Source of the DNA: a virus
Length of the DNA: 41,406 bases
Reading direction: 5' to 3' (one strand)
Virus record (IMG/VR): IMGVR_UViG_3300042987_001812
Coordinates: 1 to 41,406 of that record
Shown: piece by piece, positions 27,831-32,438 of the stretch
How the letters are laid out: each line of letters opens with the position of its first letter
How positions within the stretch are numbered: the stretch's first letter is position 1
Made by a program: the position numbers and the translations under genes
Notes under the pieces: model-generated
Databases searched by the model: none
Seen by the model: only the letters and a program-made list of their open reading frames with translations
What the model was told of the DNA's origin: nothing

Positions 27831-30800
27831 ATGACTACTACAATTTCACAACAACGACAATCAAATACTTGGGAACAGTTCTGCAACTGGGTTACATCAA
27901 CCGATAATCGTCTTTATGTCGGTTGGTTTGGAACTCTTATGATTCCTTGCCTACTTGCTGCTACTATCTGTTTCATCGTTGCGTTTATCGCAGCCCCACC
28001 CGTAGACATTAAGTTTTAATCGGTGTCCCTTACTCGTAAGAGTATTGACGAAACTGGGTGAAATGCTGGAAACCGAAAGGCAATCAGCAGCCAAGTCCAA
28101 AGTACACTTTGGAAAGGTTCAGAGACTACCTGAGGGGTTTAGTCCCCTTAATAACAGGTTTAAGCGCCCAGCCCCTTCTATGAAGGGTGAAGATATAGTC
28201 CAAACTTCACAGAGTAATCTGTAATAACCTAAGTCTTATGATATGGTTGTTTATATGAAGTTGCGACGGGATTCGTGAACCAGTTGCTGGTTCTCTAATG
28301 TACGGAAATAACATCATCAGTGGTTCCGTAATTCCAAGTTCAAATGCGATTGGATTGCATTTCTATCCAATCTGGGAAGCTGCTTCCCTTGATGAGTGGC
28401 TTTATAAATAATATTGGGTCACTTTAAATCGGGTGAACTGCTGGAAAGCTAAGTTCTCTATATGAAACACAAACATCATCTTATTCCAAAATATCTTGGT
28501 GGTTCCGATGAACCACAAAATCTTGTTGAAGTTTCTCCAATTCAACACGCTATGTTTCATTATTCTAACTGGCGTCTTTGGGGCAACCAAGAAGATAAGA
28601 TTGCTTGGAAAGCACTTGCAGGGTATTCTTCAAAAGAAGAAATAATCCAACAAGTTATTTCTCTTGCAGGTAAAAAAGGTGGTAAGGTTGCAAAAGAAAG
28701 CGGACAACTTCGTGCTGCTGCTCTTAAACAACCAAGAAGTGTAAGGCAAAAGATTGGTAAAAATCTTATCAACTACGCCTATAAAAATCCAAAGAATGCA
28801 ACACAAGAAACTCTTACTAATAGAAAATACAGTAAAGTATTTCACATTTATGAAAAACTGACTGAACGAACTATTGGTAGACATCTTGGAGATGTGATTT
28901 ATAATCCAGAAGAAGATAAAACACTCAAAACTGTTTGCTCTATTATTCTGGAAAAATATGGGATAAAAGTTTATCCTTCTCATCTCAATAGTGTTGCTAA
29001 TGGAAATAGACTTTTAACAAGTGGTATTTCTTGTAGTTGGGTTTTAGAGAATACGCCAATCAGCATCCAAGCCACAGACGATACTTCTGTGGAAGGTTCA
29101 GAGACTACTGGGTTCAACAAGCGTGTTGAGTAATACCAGATTAGCGCCCGACACCTTATAAGAATAATAAGGTGAAGATATAGTCCAGTCCATATGGAAA
29201 CATATGGTTCCCCCGACTGCTATAATGGGGGTCCTTTCCAACTCGTTGTCTTCCACTTCCTCATCGGCATCTATGCTTACATGGGCCGTGAATGGGAACT
29301 TTCTTACCGACTCGGTATGCGTCCTTGGATTTGTGTTGCTTACAGCGCACCCGTTGCTGCTGCTAGCGCAGTGTTCCTGGTCTATCCTTTCGGTCAAGGG
29401 TTGTGATATAATGGCCCTTGTAAAACTGGGTTAATTGCTGGAAAGCTAAGTTGATGAGTTTATTGAGTGGTTTTTAATTCATAAACAAAATAAGTTCATA
29501 ATAAGCCAATCAGCAGCCAAGCTCCTCACGCTTGAGGAGAAGGTTCAACGACTACTGGGTGAGTTAGGCGTAACTCTTAATACCAGCACGAACGCCCAGA
29601 ACAATCAAAACATTGATTGTTAAGATATAGTCTAGTCCTTATGGAAACATAAGATAAACTGCATTCTCTGATGCGATGCCTCTTGGCATCAGTGGTACTT
29701 TCAACTACATGCTTGTGTCAAATTGAGGCACACCTGGGAAGCAATTCCCTTGATTAAACGGGATGAATTGCTGGAAGCCTAAGTCTTTGTAGATATGGTA
29801 ATCAGCATCCAAGTCTCAGATACATCTGAGAAAGGTTCAGAGACTACCTGAGGAGTTCAGTCTCCTTAATAACAGGTTTAAGCGTCCCGCCCCTTTATGG
29901 GTGATGATATAGTCCACTCCCTTACGAAAGTTTGGGGTAAAGTGTTCAAGCAGAGCATAAGTGATATTGTGCTCTTAAAACTAGGTGAATTATTGGAAGG
30001 CTAAACTAATGTATACAAACTCATTAGACTTTAAGAATAATAAACTTAAATCTTTTCTGGAACTTATTAATTCTAGAAACCATGAGTTTGTGTCTGGAAA
30101 CTATCAAAATAAACTTTCTATAGCAAGCTAATCAATAACCAAGTCCAACTGGAAAGTTGGAAAGGTTTAGAGACTAGGACATACGACCCAGAACGGGTTA
30201 TGAAGTCCCACGAGCGCCTAGCCCAACTTCAATTAAAACTAGAAGTTGGTGATGAGATAGTCCGACACTCCGCCGAAAGACGGAGAGTTGAGGATAAAGA
30301 GCCTCAACATAACTGATGAATATTCTAATGCACCCATTTCATATGATGGGCGTAGCTGGAGTTTTTGGAGGAAGTCTTTTCTCCGCAATGCATAGGGAAC
30401 TGTGCCCTTGCTGAGTAATCAGTAAGTGAAAATCGGGTGAACTGCTGGAACCCTAAGTTACTAAAATGTTACTTGACTTATATAAATAACTCTGGTAACA
30501 TAAACTTTATGACTAACCAGTACTTATCTTTTATTGAGGAATGTAAATCAAAAACATATCCTCCCAATACTTATCTTGAAGAACACCATATTGTCCCAAA
30601 ACACGATGGTGGTCTTGATAATCCAGAAAACATTATTTCATTATCTTTTGAAGACCACATATTCGCACATAAAATAAGGTACGATGTATACGGTCAAGTT
30701 TATGACTTAGCAGCATATAACTTGATGTGTGGTTTTGATAGTGAAGGTTGGAGACTTCTTAGAGTTGAAGGTGCTTATAAAACACACGAAGCACTAAGAT

Positions 30801-32438: not shown

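Follow-up and report, generated by a model that had tools for sequence, protein, structure and literature searches.

Nine group I introns in the psbA gene of a cyanophage from a metagenomic contig

How many self-splicing elements can a useful message bear? The question is raised by IMG/VR record IMGVR_UViG_3300042987_001812, a 41.4-kb virus record that was analysed over its full length of 41,406 nucleotides (nt) and is called the window here. In it, psbA, a photosynthesis-sustaining phage gene of 1.1 kb that encodes the D1 protein of photosystem II, holds nine introns. Among sequenced isolates, the freshwater Synechococcus myovirus S-SRM01 is the nearest, matching 66% of window positions 1-24900 at 81% identity. 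We found that psbA spans 27831-32438 in ten exons, which sum to 1080 nt (359 codons and a TGA stop) and give a 359-residue D1; introns make up 3528 of the 4608 nt of the locus. We consider it very probable that this is a working cyanophage psbA that gathered nine site-specific group I introns singly from a pool shared among cyanophages.

Junctions and group I cores

To avoid circularity in placing the junctions, we wrote a spliced protein-to-DNA aligner and used as query the intronless D1 of phage DSL-LC03, which is identical to the window D1 at 343 of 359 residues (95.5%). The aligner returned the same nine introns, and no extra ones, that an original prediction had obtained by removing nine segments of 226-893 nt to leave 1080 nt of exons and a 359-residue D1. 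The rule used in that prediction, that exons end in U and introns in G, is true throughout: T closes every exon upstream of an intron and G closes every intron (9/9). A single junction is compatible with the D1 protein for introns I3, I4, I6, I8 and I9. For I1, I2, I5 and I7 a few adjacent junctions also fit, and one of each satisfies the exon-T/intron-G rule. The parts of the gene are listed below, with intron sites named by their position in the coding sequence, scores against the Rfam group I model RF00028, and identities to the same-site introns of other psbA loci (L numbers); HEG stands for homing endonuclease gene.

27831-28009, plus strand: exon 1, 179 nt, start ATG
28010-28263, plus strand: intron I1, site 179, 254 nt, HEG-less; 83.5 bits; 97% to L281
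28264-28401, plus strand: exon 2, 138 nt
28402-29219, plus strand: intron I2, site 317, 818 nt, HEG inside; 51.8 bits; 94% to L104
29220-29401, plus strand: exon 3, 182 nt
29402-29661, plus strand: intron I3, site 499, 260 nt, C-terminal HEG remnant; 102.8 bits; 90% to L139
29662-29718, plus strand: exon 4, 57 nt
29719-29944, plus strand: intron I4, site 556, 226 nt, HEG-less; 77.1 bits; 92-93% to same-site introns
29945-29958, plus strand: exon 5, 14 nt, the shortest internal exon among the psbA loci examined
29959-30318, plus strand: intron I5, site 570, 360 nt, HEG deletion remnant; 60.6 bits; 96% to L099
30319-30393, plus strand: exon 6, 75 nt
30394-31286, plus strand: intron I6, site 645, 893 nt, HEG inside; 48.7 bits, E 4e-11; 95% to L161
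31287-31531, plus strand: exon 7, 245 nt
31532-31758, plus strand: intron I7, site 890, 227 nt; 78.1 bits; 95% to L127
31759-31860, plus strand: exon 8, 102 nt
31861-32113, plus strand: intron I8, site 992, 253 nt; 55.7 bits; 252/253 identical to L305
32114-32132, plus strand: exon 9, 19 nt
32133-32369, plus strand: intron I9, site 1011, 237 nt; 95.3 bits; 98% to L204
32370-32438, plus strand: exon 10, 69 nt, stop TGA

The covariance-model search that the original prediction had proposed placed eight of the nine introns above the gathering score of RF00028 (51.8-102.8 bits) and I6 just under it (48.7 against 50), because an open reading frame of about 600 nt, its HEG, interrupts the core; HEG-less introns at site 645 in other contigs exceed the gathering score. 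Across the whole record, RF00028 matched nothing beyond the nine psbA introns. A covariation fold built without Rfam recovered P3, P4, P5, P6, P6a and P8; compensatory changes support 19 of the 25 predicted pairs. The fold was derived from 59 HEG-less psbA introns, six of them from the window and the others from other contigs; one row that is not group I (L145) remained in this alignment. The P7 strands GACTA and TAGTC are present in all aligned group I introns, where the AGTC columns are invariant, and were recognised by eye in I2, I5 and I6. A P1 helix with a U.G pair lies at all nine 5' splice sites (combined p 4e-8 when the remaining T-ending positions of the coding sequence serve as background), its guide pairing with the final 4-8 nt of the upstream exon. 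The prediction that a single phage psbA holds nine group I introns is confirmed. The core and P7 are kept in every intron, as had been claimed, but the literal motifs named with that claim are missing in I5 and I8. P4 strands there are of the TTATTGG/CCAATAA type (I5) and the ACGGG/CCCGT type (I8), compensatory changes by which the helix is preserved.

Most of the introns have an extra segment of 30-35 nt between P7 and P3, where the extra stems P7.1/P7.2 would lie in subgroup IA. In the alignment this P7-to-P3' segment is of two main sequence types, both found within one site family (sites 890, 1002 and 1011; window, L261, L126, L130 and L203), which suggests that modules may have been swapped between introns of different sites. 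Separately, 77 nt of the I1 core (28082-28158) are 88% identical to the human-gut phage record cr116_1, so that a similar core appears to be present in a very different phage.

Same-site kinship and homing endonucleases

We surveyed psbA introns elsewhere by scanning public viral contigs eight times, once with D1 and seven times with patterns of intron 3' core and psbA codons, and by including isolate records. The D1 scan gave unbroken psbA only; hence the patterns, which join ATAGTC to exon codons. These scans are complete for their patterns except at the 3' site cluster, where counts are lower bounds, and loci at contig ends may undercount introns. At least 182 psbA loci have one or more introns, nearly all of them in public viral contigs. 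Among the loci listed, about 18 sites recur, and genes have one intron (88 loci), two (54), three (24), four (12), five (2), six (1) or, in the window, nine. As many as 87 of the 198 full-length loci examined are intronless, in what is a biased sample. Introns are therefore common in cyanophage psbA, and the window stands at the far end of a distribution that runs from one to six elsewhere; the single or few insertions given as background in the original prediction correspond to the usual one to three. No second nine-intron psbA was present among the loci listed; another in the viral contig collection would probably have been seen, although the scans may miss records very near the window. The comparison with other cyanophage loci that had been proposed found all nine window sites occupied in other phages, with site 1011 (I9) the only one shared with a sequenced isolate, S-CBWM1. 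A scan of 84,980 species genomes for host psbA introns, restricted to the 3' site cluster, gave three chance matches without D1.

Two candidate observations from the survey were discarded. Sites no more than 12 nt apart seemed mutually exclusive (no co-occurrence in 98 loci), which we attribute to collider bias, as the earliest of the pattern scans picks out genes with an intron in the 1002/1008/1011 cluster; in loci from other patterns, 1.5 such pairs were expected and none was seen. The 'introns' at site 1033 (L145 and others) looked like tRNA-bearing junk and not group I. We also observed that the S-PM2-type intron at site 1002 is in only 2 of the 74 loci fetched through other sites, a biased sampling in which it seems to occur apart from psbA genes that hold several introns. 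The S-SRM01 psbA (L011) has three group I introns, at 1777-2686, 3161-3369 and 3622-3828 (sites 276, 750 and 1002). Its GenBank record holds two broken D1 pieces and leaves the second and third introns unannotated; the same kind of mis-annotation probably makes many other psbA genes of cyanophages look broken.

The introns are related by site. In blastn, 250 of the 261 distinct introns matched best to an intron of their own site, and so did all nine from the window, which are 90-100% identical to same-site introns elsewhere and about 70-84% identical to each other over short stretches. Each is thus closest to its counterparts in other phages and not to its neighbours, which argues for separately acquired, site-specific introns. 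Intron identity exceeded coding-sequence identity (codon alignment) in 97% of 3342 phage pairs; I8, for example, is nearly identical to the L305 intron, and the exon flanks match at only 38/50 and 33/50 positions. L264 and L270 were ignored in this comparison of flanks, as a one-codon deletion puts them out of register. On a tree of exon sequences the carriers are scattered, with almost one change per carrier, and at sites 317, 992, 1002 and 1008 there are as many changes as with shuffled labels. Patchy carriers combined with same-site kinship are what horizontal, site-specific homing predicts and local duplication does not. Consistent with homing, the same intron sits at the same site in unrelated phages, and intron-free alleles exist. 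In 454 pairs whose introns are at least 96% identical, exon identity fell from 0.96 over the nearest 10 nt to 0.85-0.87 between 10 and 20 nt and to background beyond, against 0.80 within 10 nt at sites where both phages lack the intron. Co-conversion could account for this rise, but so could selection acting on the homing site and on P1/P10 pairing, and the data are compatible with either. With about 18 recurring sites and many alleles with and without endonucleases, homing, HEG loss, exon co-conversion and interference between translation and splicing become testable in one gene.

Endonuclease genes accompany the introns in various states. HEGs are intact in I2 and I6, are remnants in I3 and I5, and are lacking in I1, I4 and I7-I9. 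The intact genes, and a free-standing one directly downstream of psbA, are these:

28462-29133, plus strand: I2 homing endonuclease, HNH-like, 223 residues; PHROG 655, E 3e-9
30437-31126, plus strand: I6 HNH homing endonuclease; Pfam HNH PF01844, E 8e-5; PHROG 655, E 5e-18
32536-32904, plus strand: free-standing Endonuclease VII-type HEG, F-CphI-like; Pfam PF02945, E 4e-18

A Pfam search with the I2 endonuclease gave no match, and its homologue in L266 matched HNH weakly (E 0.04). The true start of the I6 endonuclease is likely to be the ATG at 30509. The I3 remnant is the C-terminal part of a HEG (a 54-residue match, 87% identical to the L139 HEG), and I5 retains N- and C-terminal pieces; same-site introns in L139 (site 499) and L270 (site 570) have intact HEGs. 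Forms bearing a LAGLIDADG HEG exist elsewhere at site 179, the family of I1, and 809-nt HEG-bearing forms, HNH-like by eye and without a Pfam match, at site 556 in L137 and L162, the family of I4. No HEG was found among the introns listed at sites 890, 992 and 1011; all 47 introns at site 890 are HEG-less and 220-229 nt long. Introns at these three sites may move in trans. The downstream endonuclease is 34% identical (E 3e-22) to F-CphI of S-PM2, which cuts intronless psbA and cooperates with the intron there (PMC6083498). The window psbA has no intron at the F-CphI site, 1002, which is flanked by 992 and 1011, and we therefore do not claim a collaborative homing pair of the S-PM2 kind. Further endonuclease genes were seen in the record: an open reading frame amid tRNA genes (6893-7447) that over its first 71 residues shares 66% identity with the I2 endonuclease, which makes it a free-standing relative, a SegE-type GIY-YIG gene (846-1271, minus strand) and an HNH_5 protein (33696-34067). 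With the intron HEGs and the gene at 32536, the record is rich in homing-type nucleases.

Selection and proposed expression of the split gene

Neither a stop nor a frameshift was found in the 359 codons across the ten exons, and the 14 cofactor and ligand residues of D1 that were checked are all retained. Compared with five relatives, the window D1 has an amino acid identity of 0.91-0.96; nonsynonymous (dN) and synonymous (dS) divergences are 0.05-0.08 and 0.6-1.5 for four of them, and 0.09 and 2.3 for S-PM2, values that point to strong purifying selection on the exons. The gene also retains candidate expression signals:

27620-27648, plus strand: sigma-70-like promoter, TTGACA-17-TATGAT, 11 of 12 consensus positions (consensus match only)
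27685-27793, plus strand: PhotoRC-II RNA, structured psbA leader; Rfam RF01717, 47.2 bits (gathering 39)
32464-32490, plus strand: intrinsic terminator of the psbA unit, 10-bp stem and T run; fold z -5.9

PhotoRC-II also lies upstream of psbA in L099, L139, L204, L266 and L281. By these marks, the window psbA looks functional.

In each of the window introns an in-frame stop lies 3-31 nt from the 5' end, ahead of P4. Unspliced RNA consequently cannot yield D1, which bears out the expectation in the original prediction that D1 supply hinges on nine splicing reactions. Across the survey, 238 of 258 introns have an in-frame stop, against 178 and 156 in the other two frames; the excess is real but modest, and related introns are not independent.

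From the sequence, the junction rules, the core structures, the same-site kinship and the conserved exons we infer how the introns arrived and how they leave the RNA. Each intron would be one of the alleles in a family confined to a single exact psbA position and would have entered an empty site by homing, the arrivals coming one by one. Homing would have been driven by the intron's own endonuclease (I2 and I6), by one since lost (I1, I3, I4 and I5) or in trans (probably I7-I9). Transcription from the promoter at about 27620 to an end at 32487 would give a single pre-mRNA of about 4.8 kb. In it, each intron would fold, pair its guide with the end of the upstream exon through the U.G pair and excise itself, and the ten exons would be ligated into a 1080-nt D1 message. 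The early in-frame stop would halt ribosomes ahead of the ribozyme core of each intron. That the window introns splice is suggested by analogy with S-PM2, whose single psbA intron is spliced in infected cells in a light-responsive manner (PMC5931967).

Alternatives, precedents and neighbouring features

Several points weigh against this account. The phage is known as sequence from one metagenomic contig, with splicing in the cell argued from relatives. The P1 helices of I6, I7 and I9 have only 4 base pairs and are individually weak, and I7-I9 would have to be moved by a presumed endonuclease acting in trans. The data set offers no other case of an exon as short as 14 nt being spliced between two ribozymes. 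The adjacent intron pairs 317-499 and 556-570 are in no other contig, which together with the metagenomic origin, the near-identity of these introns to those of other contigs amid diverged exons and a next highest count of six among the loci listed would be expected if exons and introns from several co-occurring phages had been stitched together in assembly, with no real nine-intron genome behind them. Such a chimera is unlikely. Usual assembly k-mers are longer than exon 5, at 14 nt, and exon 9, at 19 nt, so that the introns at 556 and 570, and those at 992 and 1011, are physically linked. Six of the eight adjacent pairs recur elsewhere (570-645 also in L303, which begins within its 570 intron), and an isolate genome, that of S-SRM01, has three psbA introns. 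Among the fetched contigs, none resembled a donor, with intron and flanking exon both matching, and the longest exact match was 122 nt inside an exon and 162 nt across a junction.

Copying of one intron to nine places within the same psbA could account for the core common to all nine and for the peripheral modules that some sites share, but it is contradicted by the same-site kinship described above (90-100% against about 70-84%), and we regard it as extremely improbable. Could the gene instead be decaying, with some introns no longer splicing and the phage managing without its own D1? Two HEGs are remnants, nine steps multiply any loss in splicing, and host D1 could suffice; the open 359 codons, a dN far below dS, the complete set of cofactor residues, the P1 and core retained in every intron, and the preserved promoter-like site, leader and terminator make this very unlikely. 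It is possible, though doubtful, that the introns are kept as a light-dependent dimmer of D1, more introns making a steeper switch. The ratio of spliced psbA in S-PM2 shifts with light (PMC5931967), a passage of the same paper states that light also alters splicing of the four Chlamydomonas chloroplast psbA introns, and the in-frame stops render unspliced RNA non-coding. However, at several sites the distribution of carriers over the exon tree is close to that of random labels, many loci in the (biased) full-length sample do without introns, and HEG decay with same-site spread fits selfish elements that need confer no benefit.

A broader conjecture, which we put forward tentatively and think rather improbable as a whole, is that psbA serves as a shared landing strip of some 18 sites, where introns swap while copying almost no flanking exon and where ordered, translation-gated removal sets D1 output. 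A rise in identity confined to about 20 nt around near-identical introns could reflect very short repair tracts or insertion of RNA by reverse splicing.

Returning to stepwise acquisition from a shared pool, related systems differ from the window mainly in degree. Single psbA introns, and their abundance in marine metagenomes, have been published (PMC5931967). S-PM2 shares with the window the gene, intron class, U..G junctions and an Endonuclease VII-type HEG just downstream; it has one intron, at 1002, whereas the window has nine and none there. In S-CBWM1 (sites 649 and 1011) and S-SRM01, too, psbA holds more than one group I intron, one of them with a HEG of HNH type, but they have two and three, and none of the S-SRM01 sites is used in the window; the S-SRM01 paper infers one psbA intron, D1 having been deposited as broken pieces. 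In other phage genes also split by several group I introns, the number reaches at most three per gene: one gene of Twort has three, and polymerase and terminase genes of Bastillevirinae have up to three (PMC11878797). We found no phage gene with more than three group I introns, and no site-resolved psbA intron pool, in the literature searched, which for the former was mostly without subscription journals and bioRxiv. Nine introns are thus new in degree, three times the highest count found there for one phage gene. The original prediction called nine exceptional for any virus, which stands for phages and for group I introns but not for viruses at large: the capsid gene of Faustovirus E12, a eukaryotic giant virus, has 13 exons and 12 introns of mixed type, five group I and seven spliceosome-like, with splicing shown by RNA-seq (PMC6247863). 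Outside viruses, the 30-kb mitochondrial cox1 of the fungus Agaricus bisporus, with 18 group I introns and one group II intron (PMC2987802), resembles the window psbA in having gathered many site-specific homing introns, patchily distributed and with eroded HEGs. The Chlamydomonas reinhardtii chloroplast psbA, a plastid gene for the same product, has four group I introns with light-regulated splicing, as a passage in PMC5931967 describes.

Elsewhere in the window, 7709-9232 encodes a 507-residue protein whose sequence resembles an S-layer-domain porin of cyanobacteria; a PHROG search with it gave no match, and the matching stretch of S-SRM01 carries a gene annotated as porin. Rfam also identified an abiF RNA at 6253-6289 (49.3 bits) beside a tRNA-Arg gene, and a wcaG RNA at 13459-13553, upstream of a cluster of sugar-nucleotide genes.
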